Shown here: positions 6,856 through 22,605 of the stretch, in pieces
Position numbering within the stretch: position 1 is the first letter of the stretch
Layout of the letters: the number at the start of each line of letters is the position of its first letter
Source: Planctomycetaceae bacterium
GTDB lineage: Bacteria; Planctomycetota; Planctomycetia; Planctomycetales; Planctomycetaceae
Direction of reading: 5' to 3'
DNA: 64,000 nt
NCBI GenBank assembly: GCA_019636285.1
Contig: JAHBXV010000014.1
Span: forward strand, 62,001-126,000
The notes under the pieces: model-generated
Database searches by the model: none
The model's input: the letters and a program-made list of their open reading frames with translations, nothing else
What the model was told of the DNA's origin: nothing
Position numbers and translations under genes: made by a program

Positions 6856-9800
6856 ATGGAACACCCAACCGCGCGCAGGGCGGCGACCTGGTCGTCGGGA
6901 TGGATCGCGGCGATCGCCCTCCTCCTGGTGGCTGGCTTTGGGATCGCGCGGGAGCAAGCCGAGAGAACCGGTGCCCCGGAGACTTCGGTCTTGCGTCCCG
7001 AGAATCTGGTGGCGTGGTGCATCGTCCCGTTTGATGCGGCGAAGCGAAGTCCCGCCGAGCGGGCCATGATGCTCGATGAACTCGGGATCAAACGGTGCGC
7101 CTACGACTGGCGAGCCGAGCATGTCCCGACCTTCGAAGCCGAGATCCTCGAATACAAAAAGCATGGGATCGAGTTCTTCGCGTTCTGGGACATTCACGAC
7201 GAAGCGCTGCGGCTGTTCGAGAAATACGATCTGCATCCGCAGATCTGGAAGATGATCCCCGGTGTGGGCGAGGGTTCTCAGGAGGAGCGAGTTCGCGCAG
7301 CAGTCGCCGCGATGACCCCGCTCGCCGCGCGTACGAAAGCGGCGGGCTGCGCGCTGGGTCTCTACAACCATGGCGGCTGGCAAGGCGAGCCGGAGAATCT
7401 GGTCGCGGTCTGCCAGGCGTTGCGCGCGGCGGGCCACGAGCATGTCGGGATTGTCTACAACTTTCACCACGCGCACGACCGTATTGCCGACTGGCCGCGC
7501 GCGCTCGAGCTAATGAAACCGTATCTGTTGTGTCTGAATCTCAACGGGATGAACGACGGGGCTCAGCCGAAGATTCTGGGGATTGCCCAGGGGCAGCACG
7601 AACTGGACATGATCCGTGAGATCGTGAAAAGCGGCTATGCGGGGCCGATCGGCGTTATCGACCACCGCGAGCACCTCGATGCAAAGGAATCGCTCCAGGA
7701 AAACCTGCGGGGCCTGGCCTGGGTTCGCAAGGAGATCGAAGCCCCCGGCAGCGGCGGCCCGCGTCCCGCCCCCGTCGTGCCGTCGCCACCGAAGACTGCC
7801 GAAGGTTCCGCGAAGAAGGCACTCAATGGCGGTCGAATCCTGCCGGGTCAGGATGCCTTTCGCGAATACCCGCTGACGGTCCAGGTCCGGGCGACACTAC
7901 CCAACGCCGCGAGCTACAATATCCTAGTCGCCTCGGATGAAAAGCAGTCGACTTCGCACTGGGAACTGTTCACACCGCCGGGCTCGGGCGTTCTGACCGC
8001 TTACCTTCCCGGCTGTCAGCCCGATCACGTGGTCGCCTCGCAGGCGGTTTGCGATGGTCAACCCCATACGTTGTCGATGGTGCTGGAAGCCGCTCGAGTT
8101 CGATTGTATGTCGACGGCCGCCAGGTGGCCGATCAACGTGTGACACGCAAGCCACCGCGTGTGGTTCCTGGCCAGTTCGCGGTCGGGCGGATCGTCGAAG
8201 GAGGGCTCGAATGTGCCGGCTCAATCGACTGGGTGAGCGTTTCGCGATCGGCGAGCGACCTCAGTGGCGAACCGCTCTTGGCTCCCCAGCGTTCGGACAA
8301 CACCCTGGGGCTTTGGGATTTTACTGCGGCGCGGCCGGCAGAGCCGTTGCCGAACACGACATCGTCACATGGATCAGGACATGGCTTCGGTTCGCCGGTT
8401 CCGGCAGCGGCTCCGCCCTATGATCCCGCGCTGACGAAACAGCTTGTGGAACGGGCGATAGCCGAGGGAGATGCCGCTCGGGGCGCGAAGATCTTCGCGG
8501 CGGCCAAAACTGCTTGCCTGTCGTGTCATCGCGTGGGAGAAGTCGGCGGTCAGGTGGGACCGGAACTGACGGCAACGCTGCGTGAACGCCGCCCCGATCA
8601 GATCGTGGAAGGTCTGCTTTGGCCCAAGCGGGAAGTTCGTCCGGAATATAAGGCCATCAATGTGGTGACCGTCGAGGGTCGTGTCCTGAGCGGCTATCGA
8701 GTTTCCGGGGACGACAAGGCGTTTGAACTCCGCGAGGCGGCCACGGGAGTTGTCCATCGACTCTCCGAAGACGATGTCGACGAGGTGGTGGAAGTGGGCA
8801 CGCTGATGCCCGAGGGGCTCGTTGCAAGTCTGAGCCCGTCTCAACAGGCGGACCTCGTTCGCTTCCTGGACTCGCTGCGAACAGCCCAGCCCAATGACAT
8901 CGCGACCTTGTCAGCTAGTCTGAAACAGGCGATGCAACATGGTCCCGCCGAATTCCCCTTCAGCAAGGGGCCGCTCGTCGCGGCGAATTGGATCAATGCG
9001 ACTCATCGCGTGAATCGCGATCGGCTCTACGACTATTACACCAAGGAAGCCGACTTCTTCGTGCGGCAGAATCCGCGGCCGGCGATCGTTCCCGAGTTTC
9101 CGGGACTGGACGGCGGCGTGGATGGCCATTGGGGCAACCAGAACGAGCAGAGTTGGGCGGATGATCGCTGGAACCAGACGATTCTGGGCACGGTACAGAT
9201 GGGCGTTTTTCGCGGTCCGGGTGTCGCCGTGACGCGTGGCGTCTGCGTGCAGTTGGGCCAGCCCGGCGAACTGTCGGCCTGCTTCAACATCGATACGCTC
9301 TCCTATGACGCCATATGGACGGGCGGTTTCGTGACGTTTTCCAGCGTGCGGCACGGCTTCATGCACGGCTTGCAGATGGCGGGAACACCGGTCAAGGTCG
9401 CGGACGATTTGTCCAAAGGCCACGCCGGGGAGTACCGGGGAATGTTGCGTCGCGGCCGGGAAGTCGCCTTTCGATTTTCGAGTGGCGACGCGGAGTACCT
9501 CGACGTCCCGCGACTGGCCAATGGGGCGCTGACCCGGGAAATCATCCCGGTTGCCTCGGAGGCGGGTGAAGCCTGGCTCAAAGGGGGGCCGACTCGCGAG
9601 ACGGACGTGCTGGAAACGGCCATCACTCCGGGAAGCGGTGCAACGTACGCCGTCGATACGATCGAGCTACCGTTTAACAATCCGTGGAAGGCGCTGCTCT
9701 TCTGCGGAGGTCACGATTTTCTGGCTGATGGCTCGGCCCTGGTTGCCACCATGCAGGGAGATGTCTGGCGAGTGACCGGATTGGAGGCCGATCCCACCAA

Positions 9801-11451
9801 ACCCGCCGTGGCGCGCTGGCGGCGGTTTGCCACGGGACTGCATCATCCCCTGGGGCTGGTCGTCCACGAGGACAACATCTTCGTTCAATGTCGCGATCAG
9901 CTGGTGCAGCTAATTGATCACAACGGCGACTTTGAAGCCGACGAGTACCGTTGCCACAGCATGGCGTTCGTCACCTCGCCAGCTGGTCATGATTTCATCT
10001 GCGGTCTCGAGCGAGACGCCGAGGGGCGGTTCTACACCGCATCAGGGAACCAGGGGCTGATTCGAATCTCTGCCGACGGACGATCCGTCGAAGTGCTGGC
10101 AACCGGCTTTCGCAACCCGGATGGTCTGGGCCTCACTGGCGATGGCTACGTGACCGTCCCCTGCTCGGAAGGCGAATGGACTCCGGCATCGATGATCTGT
10201 GCCGTTCCCACCAACCGGCAAAATCCTGCAGGAAAGATTCCCTTCTATGGTTACGGAGGACCGCGCGATAACCAGCCGCCCGAGCTTCCGCTGGCCTATC
10301 TGCCGCGCGGGCTGGATAACTCGGCTGGCGGTCAGGTGCGGGTGACCAGCCGTCAGTGGGGCCCGCTGGAAGGAAAGATGGTGCACCTGTCGTTCGGACA
10401 GGGATCGCACTTCCTGCTGCTGCGCGACGAAGTTGGCGGACAGCCTCAAGGAGCGATCGTCCCTCTGCCGGGGGACTTTCGGTCGGGCGTCCACCGTGGA
10501 CGATTTCATCCGCAGGACGGGCAGTTGTATGTCAGCGGCATGGCGGGTTGGGGGACCTACACGCCGGATGATGGTTGCTTCCAGCGGGTGCGCTACACCG
10601 GCAGCCCCGTCCAACTCCCCGTTGATTTCCATGTCCACCAGAACGGTGTCTTGTTGCGGTTCTCCGAACCCCTGGACCACACGACCGCCGCAAATGCCGC
10701 AAATCATTTCGCGCAGTGCTGGAACTATCGCTACAGCGTTGCCTACGGCTCGCCGGAATACACTCCCTCGCATCCCGGCGTGAAGGGGCACGACGTGTTG
10801 GAGATCACCTCTTCCACGATGCTGGACGACGGTCGCTCGCTGTTCCTCGAGATTCCGGATCTGCAACCGGTCAACCAGTTGCATGTGCGGGTGAAGACCA
10901 ACGGGGAGGAATCGAAGGAACTGTTTATCACCGTCCACGCGCTCGATGAGCCGTTCACCGCGATCCCCGACTATCGCCCGGTCGCGAAGACAATCGCCGC
11001 GCATCCGCTCTTGGTCGACCTGGCGACGGCCGCGAAACTTGTCCCTAATCCGTGGCGAAAGAAGCAGCCCGGAGCGCGACCGCTGGAAGTCGTGACGGGC
11101 TCAAACTTGACTTACCAGACGCGTGAACTGCGTGCCAAAGCCGGTGAATTGCTGGCGATCACGCTCGTGAATCCGGACGTGGTCCCGCACAACTGGGCAC
11201 TGGTGGCACCCGGATCGCTGCAACGGGTGGGAGAGCTTTCGAATCGCCTGATCGCGGATCCTGAAGCGGTCTCGCGCCATTACATCCCAGCAACCGAAGA
11301 CGTGCTGAACTACATCGACGTCGTCCCCCCGGGCGAGCGATTCACCATTTACGTGCGTGCCCCCGAGGTTCCCGGCCGATATCCCTACCTGTGTACGTTT
11401 CCAGGACACTGGATGGTGATGAACGGCCAGATGATCGTCGAGCCGCGCTGA
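6856..11451 (+). CDS. Giant secreted fusion: TIM barrel, LamG-like, cytochrome c, propeller, cupredoxin
   Basis: This 1531-residue exported protein has several parts. A signal/membrane segment (about 15-35) is followed by an AP-endonuclease/sugar-isomerase-like TIM barrel (about 55-300). Next come a LamG-like sandwich (about 330-500) and a c-type heme site, C554-L-S-C557-H558, followed by GQVGPELT as in the planctomycete heme-binding family. The next part (about 690-1000) has the DUF6797-like pattern beginning FPFSKGPLVAANWINATHRVNRD. A six-bladed propeller (about 930-1330, VMHEDN/ISADGRSVEVLATGFRNPDG-like repeats) follows. The C-terminal azurin/auracyanin-like cupredoxin has H1445, C1513, H1518 and M1522 in azurin spacing. 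It probably moves electrons in the periplasm or acts on a carbohydrate. The substrate is unknown. Confidence 0.85.
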   Translation: MEHPTARRAATWSSGWIAAIALLLVAGFGIAREQAERTGAPETSVLRPENLVAWCIVPFDAAKRSPAERAMMLDELGIKRCAYDWRAEHVPTFEAEILEYKKHGIEFFAFWDIHDEALRLFEKYDLHPQIWKMIPGVGEGSQEERVRAAVAAMTPLAARTKAAGCALGLYNHGGWQGEPENLVAVCQALRAAGHEHVGIVYNFHHAHDRIADWPRALELMKPYLLCLNLNGMNDGAQPKILGIAQGQHELDMIREIVKSGYAGPIGVIDHREHLDAKESLQENLRGLAWVRKEIEAPGSGGPRPAPVVPSPPKTAEGSAKKALNGGRILPGQDAFREYPLTVQVRATLPNAASYNILVASDEKQSTSHWELFTPPGSGVLTAYLPGCQPDHVVASQAVCDGQPHTLSMVLEAARVRLYVDGRQVADQRVTRKPPRVVPGQFAVGRIVEGGLECAGSIDWVSVSRSASDLSGEPLLAPQRSDNTLGLWDFTAARPAEPLPNTTSSHGSGHGFGSPVPAAAPPYDPALTKQLVERAIAEGDAARGAKIFAAAKTACLSCHRVGEVGGQVGPELTATLRERRPDQIVEGLLWPKREVRPEYKAINVVTVEGRVLSGYRVSGDDKAFELREAATGVVHRLSEDDVDEVVEVGTLMPEGLVASLSPSQQADLVRFLDSLRTAQPNDIATLSASLKQAMQHGPAEFPFSKGPLVAANWINATHRVNRDRLYDYYTKEADFFVRQNPRPAIVPEFPGLDGGVDGHWGNQNEQSWADDRWNQTILGTVQMGVFRGPGVAVTRGVCVQLGQPGELSACFNIDTLSYDAIWTGGFVTFSSVRHGFMHGLQMAGTPVKVADDLSKGHAGEYRGMLRRGREVAFRFSSGDAEYLDVPRLANGALTREIIPVASEAGEAWLKGGPTRETDVLETAITPGSGATYAVDTIELPFNNPWKALLFCGGHDFLADGSALVATMQGDVWRVTGLEADPTKPAVARWRRFATGLHHPLGLVVHEDNIFVQCRDQLVQLIDHNGDFEADEYRCHSMAFVTSPAGHDFICGLERDAEGRFYTASGNQGLIRISADGRSVEVLATGFRNPDGLGLTGDGYVTVPCSEGEWTPASMICAVPTNRQNPAGKIPFYGYGGPRDNQPPELPLAYLPRGLDNSAGGQVRVTSRQWGPLEGKMVHLSFGQGSHFLLLRDEVGGQPQGAIVPLPGDFRSGVHRGRFHPQDGQLYVSGMAGWGTYTPDDGCFQRVRYTGSPVQLPVDFHVHQNGVLLRFSEPLDHTTAANAANHFAQCWNYRYSVAYGSPEYTPSHPGVKGHDVLEITSSTMLDDGRSLFLEIPDLQPVNQLHVRVKTNGEESKELFITVHALDEPFTAIPDYRPVAKTIAAHPLLVDLATAAKLVPNPWRKKQPGARPLEVVTGSNLTYQTRELRAKAGELLAITLVNPDVVPHNWALVAPGSLQRVGELSNRLIADPEAVSRHYIPATEDVLNYIDVVPPGERFTIYVRAPEVPGRYPYLCTFPGHWMVMNGQMIVEPR

Positions 11452-13212: not shown

Positions 13213-16122
13213 GTGTCGCGCGATGGCTCGGGCCTGATGACAAGGATGGCTTCGTTGCCAAGGAATTGGCAAAGCGTTGGAATTTTGTCAACGACGCGAC
13301 AGACCTGTCTGACAGGGCTGGTCATTGCGCTTGTCAGCCTTTGCGCGCAGGCCGCTGAGGTTCGCGACGGGCAGTTGACCGATTCTTTCCAAACGCTCGA
13401 ACCAAGCTGGCGGATCGCGCACCTTTCGGATCGTGGTCGCCTCGTCAATCAGATTCGCGCGAACCTGGCGGACAACCAGAACCGTTGCGAACGGTTCTAC
13501 TGGAAAGTCGGATCGGGAGGATCGGCCCTGCGGCTCGAATTGCCGCTGACGCCCGCGGTCGCGGTCGACGACATGCAGGCGTCGCTGGCAATCCGGAGCA
13601 ATAGCGGCGGCTGGCGATTGGGACTGGGACTGGTTTTTCCAGAGGTCAAAGACCCGGCAACCGGCAGCGCGGCGACGGTCGTCATCCAGGGGACGCCCTC
13701 TCCGGCTGCCGCCGGATTTCAGACACTGACCGTCCAGCTCTCGGAGGCCGAGATTCGTGAGAAGGTGGTTCTGCTGCGTGCCCGACTGCGGACGTCGATC
13801 GACCCGCGAGAAGTCCGTGTCGATCGGGTGGTCCTGACCGGTACGCTGGAGCCGGGCGAACCGATCCTCGAACTGGATGACCTGGCGGTCGCGCCCTTCG
13901 TGCCCGTCGATGGCCGGGTCGCGAATGAATCGTCCGACAGCGCTCCGCGCGGGCGAACCGGACAAATCGAATTTCGTCTCGATCGTCTGTACGTCGATGG
14001 ACGTCCGATTTTGCCGCGGATCGTGCCACACCATGGGGAACCCCTCACGGAAATTCGCGCCACCGGGGCCAACGTGGTCTGGATTCCCCGCTGGGACGAC
14101 ACACGGTTGCTCGACGCCATTCAGAGGCAAGGGCTGTGGGCGACGGCCGCCCCTCCGGTCCCCGTCAACCAGACGGGTGAAGCGCTCAATCGCGAATCGG
14201 CCGGCCTGCTTCCCTTCGACGCGGCGACGTCTCCCATTCTGTTCTGGATGCTGGGAACCCGACTGAAGTCGGCTCATCGGGAGATCGTGGAGTCGTGGTC
14301 GGCCCAGGTCGAAGAAGCGGACCGATCGCTCAGACGCCCATTGGCCGCGGAACTGGCGGAGGACGAGCGCTACTATTCCCGCTACCTGGGATTGATCGGA
14401 ACCAGTCGCCATGTGATCGGCAGTTCGCTGGGTCTCGACAACTATGCCAGATGGCTGGAAGAACGGCGGGCCCTGTCGCGACCGGGTGCCGCGATGTGGA
14501 CCTGGATTCAGGTCGAACCAGCGCCGGCACTGGCAGCCCTCCCCTCGGCTCCGGAGACGCTGACCGTCGAGCCGGAACAGATCCGGCAGCAGGTTTACGC
14601 GGCGCTGATGGCCGGCTATCGCGGCGTGGGATACTGGACAACGAAACCCTTCACGCCGGACGATGCGGTTTCGCGCGAACGACAGATTGCGATCGCGCTG
14701 CTCAACCAGGAATTAACGCTGCTGGAGCCATGGCTGGCGACGTCGGGTTCCGCATCGGCTGCCGAAGTGCTTGCTGATGGCCATGTGGTTCCGGGCAGCC
14801 TGTTCCGCAGCCGATCGGCCGGTAAGCCCGAGAGTGACGCGGCGCCCCCTGCGAAGCCGGAGGGAGTGGAAACAGCCGTGCTGCGAACCGATCATGGCAC
14901 GCTACTCCTCGTGCGTGTTTCCGAGCGAAACAGCCAGTTCTGTCCGGGCAAACTGGTCGCTCAGGATCTTCATCTGCTGGTTCCTGGTGGCGACGAAACA
15001 TCCCTGGCTGTTGAACTGACACCGACGCGAGTCTCGTTCGAGCCGCGGAAGGAACGGGCCACGGGAGGACTCAAGATTCATCTGCGGGAAGTCGATGAAA
15101 CCGCGGCGATTCTCATCACGTCGAACCAGCAGGTCATCGATCAGATTCGCGGGCAGGTCGCCGAGCAGGCCCAGCCGTGCGGCGAGGCGTGGGTGGAGCT
15201 GGCGCGATTGAAGCTGGCGCGGGTCATGGCGGTCGACAACGACCTGCGGCGCGGCGGCGGCCCCAGTCCCGAAACATCTTCTGTTCTCGCGGTGGCCCGG
15301 AAACTGGTTGCGGAAGCACAAGCCGCGTTGAACCGTTCCGACTGGCACGGAGCCAGGACTGGCAGCCGACAGGCCCTGCGACTCGTCCGGTCCGTTCAGC
15401 AGGCTCACTGGGAACTGGCGGTCAAGGAGCTGACGTCTCCCGTCGCCAGCCCGTACACCATGTCTTTCGATTCGCTCCCCGCGCATTGGCGACTGATCGA
15501 GCGGTTGGGGCGGCATCGCCCGCGCGGCGAGACAAATCTGCTCCCCTCGGGGAACTTCGAGGACGCCGACTCGCTGCTGCCCGCGGGCTGGGATCACGAC
15601 CAGACTGACGTGGAGGGCGTTGCAGCGGCGTCCGAGCTTTATCCGGAAGGCTATCGCAGCGCGTACTCGCTACGGCTACGAGCAGGTCTGAAACCGGGAG
15701 CGCAGCCGATTCCTTCGCTTCCCGGTCCGGCCATCACTTGGACGAGCCCGGGCATGCCGGTTTATGCGGGCCAACTGGTTCACATCAGCGGTCGGGCAAG
15801 AGTTCCTCAGTCGCTACAGGGTGGCATCGACGGGCTGACCATTCACGATTCGCTGCTGGGAAAAGCCGGAGCGATTCGCCTGCACGCGGAACAGGATTGG
15901 AGACGATTCGAATTGCTGCGTGAAGTACCGGCGAGTCAGGAGTTGCGAATCACCATCTCGCTGACGGGCTTCGGCGAAGTTTACCTGGACGACTTGCAGG
16001 TCGTTCCCCATGAGCCGGAAACAACGGTCGAGCCCGCATCCGGCGAAGTGGCGGGACCGTCGCGCGGGGACTCGCCATTTTCGCTCGACTGGCTGAAGCT
16101 GTCTCGCAAGCGCGCGAAGTGA
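13213..16122 (+). CDS. Large secreted protein of unknown function
   Basis: A 969-residue exported protein. A signal peptide ends near LVSLCAQAAEV (about residue 48). The middle contains a region that may be a degenerate glycosidase-like TIM barrel: RLYVDGRPILPRIVPHHGEP, TEIRATGANVVWIPRWDD and GVGYWTTKPF resemble the way GH2/GH42-like families open and continue. I cannot point to a pair of catalytic acids. The C-terminal part has a jelly-roll/carbohydrate-binding look (NLLPSGNFEDADSLLPAGWD, GEVYLDDLQV). The GTG at 13213 has GGGGGAA 6 bases upstream; ATGs at 13237 and 13246 are alternatives and would still leave a signal peptide. It precedes the cytochrome c peroxidase gene by 166 bases. Confidence 0.75.
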   Translation: MSRDGSGLMTRMASLPRNWQSVGILSTTRQTCLTGLVIALVSLCAQAAEVRDGQLTDSFQTLEPSWRIAHLSDRGRLVNQIRANLADNQNRCERFYWKVGSGGSALRLELPLTPAVAVDDMQASLAIRSNSGGWRLGLGLVFPEVKDPATGSAATVVIQGTPSPAAAGFQTLTVQLSEAEIREKVVLLRARLRTSIDPREVRVDRVVLTGTLEPGEPILELDDLAVAPFVPVDGRVANESSDSAPRGRTGQIEFRLDRLYVDGRPILPRIVPHHGEPLTEIRATGANVVWIPRWDDTRLLDAIQRQGLWATAAPPVPVNQTGEALNRESAGLLPFDAATSPILFWMLGTRLKSAHREIVESWSAQVEEADRSLRRPLAAELAEDERYYSRYLGLIGTSRHVIGSSLGLDNYARWLEERRALSRPGAAMWTWIQVEPAPALAALPSAPETLTVEPEQIRQQVYAALMAGYRGVGYWTTKPFTPDDAVSRERQIAIALLNQELTLLEPWLATSGSASAAEVLADGHVVPGSLFRSRSAGKPESDAAPPAKPEGVETAVLRTDHGTLLLVRVSERNSQFCPGKLVAQDLHLLVPGGDETSLAVELTPTRVSFEPRKERATGGLKIHLREVDETAAILITSNQQVIDQIRGQVAEQAQPCGEAWVELARLKLARVMAVDNDLRRGGGPSPETSSVLAVARKLVAEAQAALNRSDWHGARTGSRQALRLVRSVQQAHWELAVKELTSPVASPYTMSFDSLPAHWRLIERLGRHRPRGETNLLPSGNFEDADSLLPAGWDHDQTDVEGVAAASELYPEGYRSAYSLRLRAGLKPGAQPIPSLPGPAITWTSPGMPVYAGQLVHISGRARVPQSLQGGIDGLTIHDSLLGKAGAIRLHAEQDWRRFELLREVPASQELRITISLTGFGEVYLDDLQVVPHEPETTVEPASGEVAGPSRGDSPFSLDWLKLSRKRAK

Positions 16123-16288
16123 CGGGCAGCCTTCTGGGGAGATCTCCCGCGCAAAGGGGAAACGGCCTTCGAGGAAATTCCGCCGTTCACTGCGATTGTC
16201 GCGGCAGTCGTCTATAATCCAAGAGTTCGGAAACCGACCGATCTCCCGCCCTGAGAATCTGCCGATCTGCCCGCGGAGGATGCTGTCC

Positions 16289-17284
16289 ATGTCAGTGAGC
16301 AAGACGTTCTGTTTTTTCGCCAGCCTGTCTCTCGTTCTTTCGATGGCGATCCCCTGCCCGGCCGATGACGTTCCGGCCGGTTTGCCGCCGCTCCCGTCGC
16401 TGCCGGACAATCCGCAAACCGCCGAGAAGATCGCGCTGGGCCATCAGTTGTATTTCGATCCCCGGTTGTCGGTCGACAACTCGGTCTCGTGCGCGACGTG
16501 TCACGACCCGGAAAAGGGCTACAGCAATGGCGAAGCCGTGGCGACGGGTGTCGGGGGCCAGAAGGGTGGCCGCAGCTCGCCGACGATCATCAACTCGGCC
16601 TATGCGAAGCTGCAATTCTGGGATGGTCGCGCTGGGACACTGGAAGACCAGGCCTTGGGACCGATCGCCAACCCCATTGAAATGAATCTGCCCGTGGAAG
16701 AAGCGGTCGCGAAGCTGAACGCGATTGCCGGATACCGCGAGCAGTTCCAGAAGGTGTTTGGAACCGATGTGACCGCCGAAAACCTCGCCAAGGCCATCGC
16801 CGCCTACGAGCGAACGGTTCTTTGCGGCGACGCGCCATTCGACCGTTACAAGGCTGGCGACATGACCGCTCTTTCGGAGGGGGCTCAACGGGGAATGAAG
16901 CTGTTCTTTGGCAAGGCGAATTGCAGTGCCTGCCACGGCGGACACAGCTTCACCGACTTTGCCTTCCACAATATCGGCCTGCCCGGCGAGGACGAGGGCC
17001 GCAAGGCCATCAGCAAGCTCGATGGCGACAAGGGATCGTTCAAGACGCCGACGCTCAGGGAAATTGCCCGCACCGCCCCCTACATGCACGATGGCAGCCT
17101 GAAGACGCTGGAGGATGTGGTCGAGCACTACAATAAAGGGGGCGATCAGAACCCGCTGATCGACGAAGAAATCTTCCCGCTCAAGCTGACGGCCGAAGAG
17201 AAGGCCGATCTGGTGACCTTCCTGAAAGAGGGACTCGCCAGCTCGAACTATCCGCTGCACTCGAAGCCGGCGTTGCCCGAGTAG
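16289..17284 (+). CDS. Di-heme cytochrome c peroxidase / MauG family protein
   Basis: A periplasmic protein of 331 residues with a clear signal peptide (MSVSKTFCFFASLSLVLS, cleaved near CPADD). Two c-type heme sites are visible, C68-A-T-C71-H72 and C212-S-A-C215-H216. The family blocks GHQLYFDPRLS, NSAYAKLQFWDGRAGTLEDQA, NPIEMN and APYMHDGSLKTLEDVVEHYN are present. Bacterial members reduce hydrogen peroxide or oxidise protein substrates using electrons from small cytochromes or cupredoxins. The ATG at 16289 is preferred because GGAGG ends 9 bases upstream; the ATG at 16280 touches that site. It lies between two other secreted proteins on the same strand. Confidence 0.94.
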   Translation: MSVSKTFCFFASLSLVLSMAIPCPADDVPAGLPPLPSLPDNPQTAEKIALGHQLYFDPRLSVDNSVSCATCHDPEKGYSNGEAVATGVGGQKGGRSSPTIINSAYAKLQFWDGRAGTLEDQALGPIANPIEMNLPVEEAVAKLNAIAGYREQFQKVFGTDVTAENLAKAIAAYERTVLCGDAPFDRYKAGDMTALSEGAQRGMKLFFGKANCSACHGGHSFTDFAFHNIGLPGEDEGRKAISKLDGDKGSFKTPTLREIARTAPYMHDGSLKTLEDVVEHYNKGGDQNPLIDEEIFPLKLTAEEKADLVTFLKEGLASSNYPLHSKPALPE

Positions 17285-17387
17285 CGAGCGAGGGAGTCGC
17301 TCAGTTTGAACTCATTTGCCGACCGGATTACCATTCCGGAAGGTCTTCACCTGGAACTGTTGTAGTCGAATCAAGGATTTGCCGACC

Positions 17388-18623
17388 ATGCGAAAGCTGT
17401 GGAGTCATTGGTCCCTCGCGGCGATTCTGCTGGCCGCGAACAGCCCCGCGCTCATCGCGCAGGATGCCGACAAGCCCGCCGAAGAAAAACCCGCCGCCGA
17501 GGAAAAGAAGGCGGAAGATGCCAAGCCGGCCGCTGAAGCGCCGGCTGCCGAGAAGCCCGCGGAAGAGAAGAAGGAAGCGGCCCCCGCCGAAAAGCCTGCT
17601 GAAAAGCTGGCCGATGACGCCAAGCCCGCCGAAGCGGCTGGTCCGAAGGCGAAGACATCGGTCGTGCACTTGAACAATCCGTCGGGCGTGACGGTTCACC
17701 CGGGAACCGGGCACGTGTTCGTCGCCAGCCAGCAGGGTGTCTTTCGTCTGGTGCCGGGTAAGCCCGGGAAAATCTACCTGGAAGTCGAAGAGTTCCCGAC
17801 CGATCAGTACGGCAAGGGTCCGGTCTACGACATTGGACCGCTCGGCGTCGCCCTGTGGGGAACCGACCGCTTGATCGTCGCCGACGGCAGCCGCAAAGAC
17901 GGCGAAGAACTGGTCCGCGTCTACAAGATCGAAGATGCCGTTCCCGGCAAGCCCCGCAAGGAAGGGGATGCCGAATTTACCCTGGGACCGATCGCCCCCG
18001 GCGATGCCAGCCCCAAGGGCGAAGGGAATTTCTACGGCGTGACGGTTTTCAAAGACGCGATTTACGTCACCTCGAACGGCGACGACACCAAGGGCTGGGT
18101 TGCGAAGGCGGCCATTGCCGATGGCAAGCCGGGTGAGCTGACTCCAACGATCGCCACGAAGGAAGCCACCGAAGTCGACGCGCCGATCGCGATCACGGTT
18201 GGAACCGATGGCGAATCGCTGGTGATTTCTCAGGGTGGCGAAGTCAATGTTCCCGGCGACAGCCTGCTGACGATGTACGATGCCGAAGGCAAGCTGACGA
18301 AGAAATTCACGACCGGCCTGCACGATATCACCGGCCTGGCCTATGGACCGGGCGGCAAGCTGTATGCGGTCGACTTTGCCTGGGCCGATACCACGCAGGG
18401 CGGCCTCTTTGAATTGACGGTTGAAGGGGATACCTGCACCGCGAAGAAGATCGTGGGCCTGGATCGCCCGACGGCATTGGCGTTTGACAAGGATGGCGGC
18501 CTGTACGTGACGGTCTTCGCCGACCCGAATGCCAAGCCGACGACTGAACAAGAAGCTCCGAAGGAAGGCGAAAAGCCGAAGCCGACCGGCGCGCTGGTCT
18601 ACTTCGCTCCGGGTTCCTTCTAG
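17388..18623 (+). CDS. Secreted beta-propeller protein with an Ala/Pro/Glu/Lys-rich N-terminal linker
   Basis: A 411-residue exported protein. The signal peptide (LAAILLAANSPALIAQ) is followed by about 60 residues made of repeating KPAEE/AAEKP words, a flexible charged linker. Then comes an NHL/SMP-30-like propeller with recurring VTVHPGTGHVFVAS, GLAYGPGGKLYAVDFAWAD and ALAFDKDGGLYVTVF blades. The fold suggests a binding or lactonase-type scaffold at the cell surface, but no catalytic residues can be assigned. The ATG at 17388 has AAGGA 10 bases upstream and gives an ordinary signal peptide. The gene ends at a strong terminator and may form one transcript with the peroxidase gene. Confidence 0.82.
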   Translation: MRKLWSHWSLAAILLAANSPALIAQDADKPAEEKPAAEEKKAEDAKPAAEAPAAEKPAEEKKEAAPAEKPAEKLADDAKPAEAAGPKAKTSVVHLNNPSGVTVHPGTGHVFVASQQGVFRLVPGKPGKIYLEVEEFPTDQYGKGPVYDIGPLGVALWGTDRLIVADGSRKDGEELVRVYKIEDAVPGKPRKEGDAEFTLGPIAPGDASPKGEGNFYGVTVFKDAIYVTSNGDDTKGWVAKAAIADGKPGELTPTIATKEATEVDAPIAITVGTDGESLVISQGGEVNVPGDSLLTMYDAEGKLTKKFTTGLHDITGLAYGPGGKLYAVDFAWADTTQGGLFELTVEGDTCTAKKIVGLDRPTALAFDKDGGLYVTVFADPNAKPTTEQEAPKEGEKPKPTGALVYFAPGSF

Positions 18624-18734: not shown

Positions 18735-21700
18735 CTACCACCGCAGATCGAGCGTGAACGGGAAGCTGGGGTTGGGCGATTCTTCGGGGAGCCGCAGCGT
18801 TCCCGTGGAGTGTCCCATCTTGAAGAACCTCGCTGCCCGCCGGCTTTCGGCTTCGTAGGCGTTCACCGGAAAGGTGGAATAGCTGCGGCCGCCGGGATGC
18901 GCCACATGGTAGGTGCAGCCGCCGACCGACCGGCGGAGCCAGTTGTCGTAGAGATCGAACACCAGCGGGGTGTGAACGCCAATCGTGGGGTGCAGACACG
19001 ACGGCGGCTGCCAGGCCCGATAACGGACTCCCGCGACGAACTCTCCCTCGACCCCGGTGGGATGGAGGGGCAGATTGCGGCCGTTGCACGTGACCGTGTG
19101 CCGGGTGGACGTCATGCCGCGCACCTTGACCTGCAATCGCTCGACTGAGGAATCGACATAGCGCACGGTGCCGCCTCCACCGGGTTCCTCGCCCAGCACG
19201 TACCAGGGTTCGATGGCGGTCCGGAGTTCGACATGGACATTGTCCTGCACGAATTCGCCCATGAACGGAAAACGGAATTCAAAGTGGGGCGAGAACCAGG
19301 CGTGCTCGAACGGATACCCGCCCAGGCGCAATTCTTCCACGATCGTCCGGAAGTCTTCAGCCAGAAAGTGCGGCAGCATGAAGCGGTCATGGAGCGACGT
19401 TCCCCATTCCACCGGCGTCGCTCGGTAGGGATTTTCCCAGAACAAGTTAACCAGCGCGCGCACCAGGAGCTGCTGAGTGCAGCTCATCTGGTAGTGCGGC
19501 GGCATTTCAAACGCGCGAAGTTCCAGGAGACCCAACCGGCCCGTGCTGCTGTCGGGCGAATACAGCTTGTCGATGCAGAATTCGCTGCGGTGCGTGTTCC
19601 CCGTCCCGTCGGTCAGCAAATGTCGGAAAACGCGATCGACGAGCCACGGCGGACAGGCTCCTCCCTCGGGAATCTGCTGGAACGCGATCCGCAACTCGTA
19701 AATGGCATCGCGGCGACCTTCGTCCACACGCGGCGACTGGCTGGTCGGGCCGATGAACAGGCCAGAAAACAGGTAACTGAGCGAGGGGTGATTGATCCAG
19801 TAGGCCAGGAGGCTGCGCAAGAGATCGGGCCGCCGCAAAAAGGGGCTGTCCGCCGGGGTTGGTCCCCCGAGAACCACGTGGTTGCCCCCGCCGGTTCCGG
19901 AATGGCGTCCATCAAGCATGAACTTCTCGGTCCCCAGCCGGGAGCAGCGGGCTTCGTCGTAAAGGATCGTTGTATTTTCGACGAACTCGTCCCAGTTCGC
20001 GGACGGCTGGGTGTTGACCTCGATGACGCCGGGGTCGGGCGTGACCTTGATCTGCTGGAGACGGTAGTCGAACGGAGCCGGGTAGCCCTCGATGACAACC
20101 GGCATGGAACGGCTGGCGGCCGTGTCTTCGATCGCTGTCACGATTTCGAGATAGTCTTCAATGGTCTCGACCGGCGGCATGAAGACATACAGCCGTCCGT
20201 CGCGTGGCTCGACGCAAAGAGCCGTACGGATGATGTCCGACGGGGGTGGATACGGCGTGTCGGGCGACTGCGGCGGCCGCTTCTTCGGGCGCGGTTCCGG
20301 CTGTCCCTGGCCATACCCCGGATCGCCGAGTCCATGCGCGCGGGCGTATTCGGGGCTCATGCCCGTCGCGAGAAACGGCTGCCGAATCCGCCGCGCGGGC
20401 TTGGGCAATTCGCCCCGCTCGGACCAGGGATCGGTCGCGTGCATCCAGGGATATTCCGCTTCGGAAACATACGGCAGCGAATCGAGCGGCAGCCGCAGCC
20501 CCATGGGGGAGTCGCCGGGCAACAGGTACATGAAATCGCGTCGAACGGGCCAGGGACCACTTTCCCAGCGACCGTTCGCCTGCCACCATTGGCGACGGAT
20601 GGGGAACATCACGCCCGTGGGAGTGCCAAGCCCCTGTTCGAAGACCTTTGCCAGCCTCGCCCGTTCCTCGGCATCGTTCAGCCGGGGATCGCCGGCAATC
20701 AGGTTCACCGGCAGTTTGCGTTCGCGAACCAGGTAGTGCGAAACATCTTCATAGGCGGGAACGACCCACTTGGGGTCGAGCCCGAGTCGCTCGGCCAGAT
20801 CGGTGGCGAACGACTCGGCGTCTTCAATCGTGTAATTGTACGAACGGTCTTCGCGGGCGAAGAGCGTTTCGTCGTGCCAGATCGGAACGCCGTCCTTCCG
20901 CCAGAGCAGCGTAAACGTCCAGCGGGGGAGCGACTCGCCGGGATACCACTTCCCCTGCCCGTAATGCAGGAGGCCGCCAGGGGCGAAACGGTCACGCAGC
21001 CGGCGAATCAGAATATCGGAACGGGCGCGCTTCTGGGGTCCGAGGGCCGCGGTATTCCATTCGTCGCTCTGCATGTCGTCGACTGAGACAAACGTCGGTT
21101 CGCCCCCCATGGTGAGCCGAACATCGTTGCGATCGAGACGGCGGTCGATCGCGCGGCCCAATTGCATGATCGACTGCCATTGGACGTCGGTGTAGGGCTT
21201 CGTGACGCGCGGATCTTCGTGGATGCGCGTGACGCTCATCCGGAAGTCAAATTCGGTCTCGGCATCGTCGACCGTGCCGGTAATGGGAGCGGCGCTGGTG
21301 GGATCGGGTGTACAAGCCAGCGGGATATGACCTTCGCCGCAGAACAGGCCCGAGGTGGGGTCCATCCCCACCCAGCCCGCGCCGGGCAGATAGACTTCGC
21401 ACCAGGCGTGCAGATCGGTGAAGTCGGCTTCGGGACCGGAGGGACCATCGAGCGACTTCACATCGGGGGCAAGCTGAACGAGGTAGCCGGAGGCAAAGCG
21501 GGCGGCGAGCCCGAAATGCCGGAGCATCTGCACCAGCAGCCAGGCCGAATCTCGACACGATCCCGACCCCCGGGAGAGCGTTTCTTCCGGCGTCTGAACG
21601 CCGGGCTCCAGGCGAATCAGGTAGCTGATATCGCGTTGCAGGCGGCTGTTGATATCAACCAGAAAATCAATCGTGGAACGGGGACAGCGATCGACCCCTT

Positions 21701-22094
21701 CGAGATACTCGTTCAGCCGGGGCCCCGCATGGTCGAACTCCAGAAACGGCTTCAGTTCTCGATTTAGCCAGCCTTCGTACTCAAATGGGAACTTGTCAGC
21801 ATACGATTCGAGAAAGAAGTCAAAGGGATTGATCACCGTCATGTCGGCGATCACTTCGACTTCGACGCGAAACTCCTTGGTCTGCTTGGGAAAGACCAGC
21901 CGCGCCAGGTAGTTGCCATGCGGATCCTGCTGCCAGTTGAGAAAGTGCTCGCCCGGCGAGACCTTCAGCGAGTAACCGGGAATGGGGGTTCGGCTGTGAG
22001 GAGCGGGCCGCAGGCGAACGACCTGTGGTCCCAGGTTGACCAGCCGGTCGTAGCGGTAGCTGGTGACGTGCTGCAGGGCGACTCGAATCGTCAT
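18735..22094 (-). CDS. Transglutaminase-like protein with C-terminal DUF2126
   Basis: A 1119-residue two-part protein. The N-terminal transglutaminase-like cysteine-protease fold includes the usual N-terminal strand region (VALQHVTSYRYDR). The triad is visible: C180 in GSGSCRDSAW, H229 in LHAWCEVY, and D245 in WVGMDPTSG. The remaining 800 or so residues are the DUF2126 region (VRLTMGGEPTFVSVDD, GKWYPGE, GHSG/GGGNHVVLGG, FLRRPDLLRSLLAYWINHPS). This fusion is known in many bacteria, often beside DUF403/DUF404 genes in a probable amide-ligase/protease system; those partners are not in this window. Homology begins at the ATG at 22094; the upstream extension of the frame is not family sequence. 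Confidence 0.92.
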   Translation of the reverse strand: MTIRVALQHVTSYRYDRLVNLGPQVVRLRPAPHSRTPIPGYSLKVSPGEHFLNWQQDPHGNYLARLVFPKQTKEFRVEVEVIADMTVINPFDFFLESYADKFPFEYEGWLNRELKPFLEFDHAGPRLNEYLEGVDRCPRSTIDFLVDINSRLQRDISYLIRLEPGVQTPEETLSRGSGSCRDSAWLLVQMLRHFGLAARFASGYLVQLAPDVKSLDGPSGPEADFTDLHAWCEVYLPGAGWVGMDPTSGLFCGEGHIPLACTPDPTSAAPITGTVDDAETEFDFRMSVTRIHEDPRVTKPYTDVQWQSIMQLGRAIDRRLDRNDVRLTMGGEPTFVSVDDMQSDEWNTAALGPQKRARSDILIRRLRDRFAPGGLLHYGQGKWYPGESLPRWTFTLLWRKDGVPIWHDETLFAREDRSYNYTIEDAESFATDLAERLGLDPKWVVPAYEDVSHYLVRERKLPVNLIAGDPRLNDAEERARLAKVFEQGLGTPTGVMFPIRRQWWQANGRWESGPWPVRRDFMYLLPGDSPMGLRLPLDSLPYVSEAEYPWMHATDPWSERGELPKPARRIRQPFLATGMSPEYARAHGLGDPGYGQGQPEPRPKKRPPQSPDTPYPPPSDIIRTALCVEPRDGRLYVFMPPVETIEDYLEIVTAIEDTAASRSMPVVIEGYPAPFDYRLQQIKVTPDPGVIEVNTQPSANWDEFVENTTILYDEARCSRLGTEKFMLDGRHSGTGGGNHVVLGGPTPADSPFLRRPDLLRSLLAYWINHPSLSYLFSGLFIGPTSQSPRVDEGRRDAIYELRIAFQQIPEGGACPPWLVDRVFRHLLTDGTGNTHRSEFCIDKLYSPDSSTGRLGLLELRAFEMPPHYQMSCTQQLLVRALVNLFWENPYRATPVEWGTSLHDRFMLPHFLAEDFRTIVEELRLGGYPFEHAWFSPHFEFRFPFMGEFVQDNVHVELRTAIEPWYVLGEEPGGGGTVRYVDSSVERLQVKVRGMTSTRHTVTCNGRNLPLHPTGVEGEFVAGVRYRAWQPPSCLHPTIGVHTPLVFDLYDNWLRRSVGGCTYHVAHPGGRSYSTFPVNAYEAESRRAARFFKMGHSTGTLRLPEESPNPSFPFTLDLRW

Positions 22095-22605
22095 CGGAGG
22101 ATCGTTTTCCAACAGGAGCGGAGGACTGCAACCGGCATTTGTAGAATGCGAAAACAGTACCCAGTCGCGATGGCTTCTCACCAGTCCCGGTAAAAATGCC
22201 GTTTCGAGACCAGGTTCTGCCGACGTTGTCGACGGTGGCAAAAGCCATCACGAGCTTGCCCGTCGCCTAACTTCATGGTGAGTAGTGTGTTGCGACGGTC
22301 TGCCCCCAGGGACACAGGACTCGTCCGTCGTCGGGCTGAGTGCCCGAAAAGAGCGCGACCCAATTTGAGGGACTGCTCTTTGGCCACTTTCGGGGAGAGT
22401 TCGCCGTGGCCTCGACTGGGGGTCGGTCGCGAGGGCCTCAAAATTCTGCTGATTTTCGCGACAACCGATGCGCGCGAAATCGGCAGAGAGATCCCTGGTC
22501 ACAAGGACCATCGCCTGACTTTCTCCCTTGGTAGCCACCCCGTAGACTTGCTGGTGACAATTCCCGAATTTGGACGTCAACACGGGTTAACAGGACGCCT
22601 CCCGC
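22095..22605. other. Intergenic region between divergent genes
   Basis: The region must hold promoters for the transglutaminase/DUF2126 gene (minus) and the methyltransferase gene (plus), but I see no convincing boxes, repeats or gene in it. A weak AAAAT...ATTTT dyad near 22440-22456 is the only structure and has no supporting context. Confidence 0.4.

Follow-up and report, generated by a model that had tools for sequence, protein, structure and literature searches.

An exported planctomycete protein family joining heme c and blue-copper domains to a DUF6797-propeller core, probably a self-wired oxidoreductase

The window analysed here, a 64,000-nucleotide stretch of contig JAHBXV010000014.1 from a Planctomycetaceae bacterium (assembly GCA_019636285.1), carries on its forward strand an open frame of 1531 codons with no stop, which translates to 1531 residues (Table 1). 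A stop-free run of this length would be expected by chance with a probability of about 2e-20 at the base composition of the frame, and the GC content of its three codon positions is 68/47/72% (GC3 72%). The long stop-free run, together with the existence of full-length homologues, indicated that the frame is real. Its product is predicted to be exported, as judged from a hydropathy peak near the N-terminus. Sequence profiles and AlphaFold2 models gave the domain order TIM barrel, LamG sandwich, TIGR02603 c-type heme domain, DUF6797, beta propeller and blue-copper domain. In searches of the protein with Pfam and NCBIfam profiles at curated cut-offs, LamG, TIGR02603, DUF6797 and Copper-bind (residues 1414-1529) scored above the cut-off, and AP_endonuc_2 (residues 133-285) fell below it with 20.5 bits vs 31.1. 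The AlphaFold2 model of residues 520-1531 had a pLDDT of 84.7 and a pTM of 0.80. A sequence-only reading of this DNA had described a single exported frame with a heme motif, a copper-ligand set, a barrel, a LamG-like sandwich and a propeller. The profiles and models agreed with this description, the residues C554xxC557H558 and H1445/C1513/H1518/M1522 were found exactly at the positions it gave, and the TIM, LamG, propeller and cupredoxin folds were all supported by the AlphaFold2 models. The features it had missed were the putative distal heme ligand M651, DUF6797 and the replaced metal ligands of the TIM barrel.

Table 1. Features of the 1531-residue protein and their positions in the window
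Feature	Residues	Position	Strand	Evidence
Whole gene, 1531 aa		6856-11451	+	Open frame, full-length homologues
N-terminal hydrophobic export signal or anchor (predicted)	12-33	6889-6954	+	Hydropathy peak at residues 12-31
TIM barrel, sugar isomerase/epimerase fold	~50-300	7003-7755	+	AlphaFold2 pLDDT 87.5, VIA Z ~20, hhalign
LamG/ConA-like beta sandwich	334-465	7855-8250	+	Laminin_G_3 above cut-off; model strands
TIGR02603 c-type heme domain with inserted beta 'nose'	538-673	8467-8874	+	TIGR02603 profile, 7zs0 profile match
Heme attachment motif C554-L-S-C557-H558	554-558	8515-8529	+	40/40 homologues
Distal heme ligand M651 (inferred)	651	8806-8808	+	40/40; aligned to Met292 of Kustd1711
DUF6797	808-882	9277-9501	+	Pfam above cut-off; 38/38 members match
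Beta propeller, aldose-dehydrogenase-like	~927-1248	9634-10599	+	AlphaFold2 model; Foldseek, VIA to 2ism, 3a9g, 3das
Ca-loop-like motif D1021xNxDxExDxY1031 in propeller	1021-1031	9916-9948	+	Kept in at least 57/60 sequences
H1045, counterpart of sGDH/YliI catalytic His	1045	9988-9990	+	60/60; hhalign to E. coli YliI
R1086-N1087, counterpart of sGDH Arg228-Asn229	1086-1087	10111-10116	+	60/60 and 56/60; hhalign
Type 1 copper cupredoxin, auracyanin-like	1406-1529	11071-11442	+	VIA to 2aan, profile match
Cu ligand H1445	1445	11188-11190	+	39/39 homologues
Cu loop C1513-TFPG-H1518-WMV-M1522	1513-1522	11392-11421	+	38/38 homologues

An SBF/BASS transporter frame begins 36 bases downstream of the gene, and it had been proposed that this symporter imports the product. 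This proposal was not borne out, as an SBF gene was found beside none of the homologue loci, most of which have just 1.5 to 8 kb of flanking sequence. Likewise, no conserved operon partner or substrate-pointing neighbourhood was found at these loci. Further along the window, positions 13213-16122 (+) encode a 969-aa, probably exported product that matched no Pfam or NCBIfam profile and was conserved at about 28-43% identity in 30/30 genomes searched, some of them from other families of the class; it appears to represent an undescribed conserved planctomycete family. A MauG/cytochrome c peroxidase-type di-heme protein (16196-17284, +) followed by an NHL-repeat protein (17316-18623, +) forms a second, separate redox/propeller pair nearby, and the frame at 18735-22241 (-) encodes a 1168-aa transglutaminase fused to a DUF2126 putative amidoligase.

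The heme domain scored 82.8 bits with the NCBIfam TIGR02603 profile (cut-off 68.15), and its own profile matched PDB 7zs0 (Kustd1711) along the entire domain with an E-value of 4e-27, placing M651 opposite Met292. In the ligand alignment of 40 sequences (46-60% identity; absent cells at ligand columns are contig ends), C554, C557, H558 and M651 were each invariant. With the profile above its cut-off and both the CxxCH motif and the distal Met present, the domain belongs to the TIGR02603/Kustd1711 type. The hemes of Kustd1711 are His/Met-ligated, with potentials of about +355 to +385 mV; the protein has Ca bound and carries an inserted beta 'nose' (PMC11791136). The five strands found between CxxCH and M651 in the model of residues 520-1531 probably correspond to such an insertion. 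The resemblance is thus to the C-terminal cytochrome of Kustd1711 with its nose and distal Met; whereas Kustd1711 is a free, unfused diheme carrier of anammox, the heme domain here sits inside a multi-module chain.

The cupredoxin model superposed on auracyanin A (2aan) with a VIA Z-score of 18.6 and an rmsd of 1.4 Å over 118 residues, and the cupredoxin profile match had an E-value of 4e-18. Its loop, C-x4-H-x3-M, has the spacing of azurin, and H1445 (39/39) as well as C1513, H1518 and M1522 (38/38) were invariant in the homologue alignment. The fold and the His, Cys, His, Met ligand set of type 1 copper proteins are therefore present, the copper site is predicted, and the C-terminal blue-copper domain is, as modelled, closest to auracyanin. 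It shares the fold and all four ligands with auracyanin and azurin; unlike these free carriers, it ends a 1531-residue chain. Homologues lacking the heme cysteines or copper ligands would have spoken against the sequence-only reading, and these ligands proved invariant in the 38-40 close homologues. That reading had also held that heme c and type 1 copper usually sit on separate carriers. The covalent joining in this family is supported and conserved, and the rule itself has exceptions elsewhere, namely heme-tethered Cu nitrite reductases and cupredoxin-NirS fusions (PMC8756737). Two known copper enzymes were rejected as identities of the protein. A three-domain Cu nitrite reductase needs a type 2 Cu lying between two cupredoxins, and there is just one cupredoxin here. 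Nitrous oxide reductase likewise has a propeller followed by a cupredoxin, as the Foldseek matches indicated, but the single Cys of the Cu loop is the type 1 pattern and not that of the two-Cys CuA, and the seven-His CuZ set is missing, H1045 being the sole His invariant in all 60 propellers.

For the front half of the protein, the AlphaFold2 model of barrel and LamG had a mean pLDDT of 87.5 with a clear TIM fold; Foldseek and VIA placed the barrel in the AP_endonuc_2-type fold, with VIA Z-scores of about 20 to UlaE, Art22 and IolI. The top Foldseek match was the 3-keto-D-glucoside 4-epimerase YcjR. The genome (6.4 Mb) holds 32 AP_endonuc_2 matches, and 14 AP_endonuc_2 family proteins from it were aligned to the barrel by hhalign (E 3.5e-10). 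The results showed that the canonical Glu-Asp-His-Glu metal tetrad is replaced by Y170, N202, N228 and I/L268 in 28/28 sequences, in which N171, H172, H204, H205, H207, N230 and H270 are also invariant. The classic metal site is thus lost, and a new Asn/His-rich polar pocket is strongly constrained.

The central part of the chain consists of DUF6797, for which a literature search returned no paper, and the propeller. The best structural match of the propeller in Foldseek and VIA was the glucose-dehydrogenase-like 2ism, followed by 3a9g, 3das and YliI. NHL and gluconolactonase propellers tied with the dehydrogenases in VIA Z-scores, a PDB search with the propeller profile returned NHL-type matches only, and the TIGR02604 propeller profile gave 20 bits vs a cut-off of 122. 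Conservation was counted over 60 propellers from five architectures: H1045, R1086 and R1214 were present in all 60, and N1087 in 56. When the propeller was aligned by hhalign with E. coli YliI and with three GSDH proteins encoded in this genome, H1045 lay opposite the YliI His and R1086-N1087 opposite the YliI RNPQG (E 2e-4, modest probability). By the alignment to YliI, the propeller retains the catalytic residues of sGDH, in which His144 is the base and acts with Arg228 and Asn229 (PMC6881810). The D1021xNxDxExDxY1031 motif is EF-hand-like and possibly a Ca site. The propeller may work like a PQQ sugar dehydrogenase, with which it shares fold and His/Arg/Asn set, but the GSDH profile (PF07995) matched 0/38 members at E<=0.1. 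In the 60-sequence alignment, the positions matching the PQQ contacts Lys377 and Arg406 of sGDH are not basic, so that these two contacts appear to be lost. PQQ synthesis genes were absent or below the cut-off in the same genome and nearly the whole family: pqqC was found in 1/150 family genomes, which was not the present one, and PqqB and PqqE gave generic matches only, below the cut-off. The profile match, part of the PQQ contacts and the PQQ genes are thus all missing, and PQQ may or may not be the primary electron-accepting cofactor of the propeller. The fungal AA12 enzyme CcPDH offers a parallel in that a cytochrome is joined to a propeller dehydrogenase; its heme is of type b, in contrast to the heme c plus Cu found here.

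Homologues of this exported multi-module family occur in many Planctomycetota. Some part of the protein was matched at E<=1e-30 in 136/150 genomes of the same family and was present in 57/294 genomes of a wider phylum sample, the relatives by name belonging to the Planctomicrobium, Roseimaritima and Pirellula lineages. A match extending from the heme domain as far as the Cu loop was found in 35 of the 150 family genomes, its own included, and in 20 of those 35 the barrel lay within the same match, giving full-length homologues in about 20 genomes of the family. A search of the same genome for a full-length paralogue found none; the matches were confined to the heme domain, which is shared, and a single weak propeller. 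Comparison of the relatives revealed five architectures. Type A, TIM-LamG-heme-DUF6797-propeller-Cu, has variants without LamG, without TIM, or with the TIM barrel encoded by an adjacent gene (L037, L040); a TIM barrel fused to the core or encoded next to it in different genomes argues for a functional link between the two. In type B (DUF6797-propeller-Cu-heme) the heme domain stands at the C-terminus. Type C combines TIM/LamG-DUF6797-propeller with five C-terminal CxxCH motifs and no Cu domain (L089, L090, L095 and L098, about 2,100-2,200 residues), type D has Cu without heme (L093, L094), and type E comprises six more distant core proteins without any redox motif. In a quickly built propeller tree with many open forks, all Cu-bearing sequences formed one group (SH-aLRT 100) with types C and E outside it, and the heme-free L094 nested within type A. 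In the simplest reading of this tree, the Cu domain was fused once, and heme would have joined at either end and dropped out in some cases. Heme as an indispensable module is ruled out by L093 and L094, and a redox module as an obligatory part is ruled out for the distant type E cores. The swapping of redox modules around the DUF6797-propeller core is the main new point of this study.

Taken together, the protein likely belongs to a real enzyme family with its redox wiring in the same chain, its activity being predicted. In the mechanism we propose, the DUF6797-propeller unit would be the catalytic core, and a small polar, probably carbohydrate-type substrate would be oxidised in the propeller pocket with the PQQ-dehydrogenase His/Arg/Asn set. 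From there, electrons would pass to the respiratory chain by way of the heme c (His/Met, high-potential) and blue-copper domains of the same polypeptide; the pairing of a high-potential carrier with blue copper would suit such a relay. Substrate binding, or a second step on the substrate, may fall to the LamG sandwich and to the TIM barrel with its re-tooled, His/Asn-rich pocket. The invariant heme and Cu ligands, the homology to Kustd1711, the auracyanin match, the dehydrogenase-like pocket and the interchangeable redox modules favour an oxidoreductase. It is weakened by the missing GSDH match, the NHL-type PDB matches, the VIA ties and the missing PQQ genes, and also by the six redox-free cores, the two heme-free Cu relatives and the lack of a substrate-pointing neighbourhood. 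We regard this reading as a whole, from carbohydrate oxidation to electron exit, as evenly poised between right and wrong. The self-contained periplasmic oxidoreductase suggested from sequence thus remains likely as a prediction, given the constant core, the dehydrogenase-like pocket and the swapped redox modules, with the type E cores standing against it; a sugar as its substrate is our inference. The covalent link of heme c and Cu to a sugar-type front end, part of the same suggestion, is supported and conserved among homologues.

A different role would be that of a binding or scaffold protein, in which propeller and TIM barrel hold a polysaccharide and the heme and Cu domains relay electrons, the sugar not being oxidised by the protein. 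The lost TIM metal site and the distant cores without redox modules are consistent with it, as are the NHL-type propellers, which often serve for binding and reach equal VIA Z-scores, but the dehydrogenase-like His/Arg pocket is strictly conserved, and in most relatives one carrier type replaces another rather than simply being lost; we consider this role unlikely, though to be taken seriously. Alternatively, the protein could be a true sugar dehydrogenase of the PQQ-dependent kind, a bacterial counterpart related to the AA12 quinohemoproteins, that scavenges its PQQ. E. coli and other bacteria are able to use PQQ supplied from outside, and the match to 3a9g, 3das and YliI and the kept catalytic residues agree with this; the absent GSDH match, the non-basic counterparts of Lys377 and Arg406 and above all the missing PQQ genes weaken it as a leading explanation and make it quite improbable. 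That the TIM barrel is the sugar-active centre, an epimerase/lyase-like unit with YcjR-type 3-keto-glucoside chemistry on a keto-sugar first made by propeller and carriers, is very improbable despite the top match to YcjR, the invariant pocket suggestive of a retained active site and the fused or adjacent TIM barrels, since all four canonical metal ligands are replaced in 28/28 sequences and many isomerases tie in VIA Z, YcjR not standing out.

Returning to the proposed oxidoreductase, planctomycete-specific cytochromes fused to LamG-type modules have been reported, with unknown function and a suggested carbohydrate role (He et al., PMC5615132). By domain content, compared with that description, the present protein qualifies as such a PSCyt, a PVC protein combining cytochrome c with carbohydrate-binding-type domains. 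It shares with the PSCyt/PSD fusions (TIGR02603/TIGR02604) a c-type cytochrome, LamG modules and further domains, and differs from them in its extra C-terminal auracyanin-like Cu domain, N-terminal TIM barrel and DUF6797. It is accordingly a variant of these known fusions and not a categorically new system. A bolder proposal, a new class of self-wired periplasmic carbohydrate oxidoreductases having a DUF6797-propeller core that combines a PQQ-enzyme-like triad with a different or no quinone cofactor, swapped heme c, pentaheme and blue-copper relays, and, coupled in cis, a TIM barrel whose metal site is of a new His/Asn type, is in our judgement doubtful.

Dozens of 'planctomycete-specific' cytochrome fusions with no known function occur in Planctomycetes, and about 20 TIGR02603-type heme-domain places were found in this genome. 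The present family gives an unusually informative handle on them: its pocket is of the dehydrogenase type, its heme domain has a relative of solved structure and known potential, its Cu site is modelled well, and its domains are swapped naturally among relatives. With these four features together, a single polypeptide allows a direct test of the long-standing question of what these cytochromes oxidise. Should the substrate prove to be a sugar, the family would point to a way of using sugars, in a phylum that is abundant, by oxidation and independently of hydrolases.
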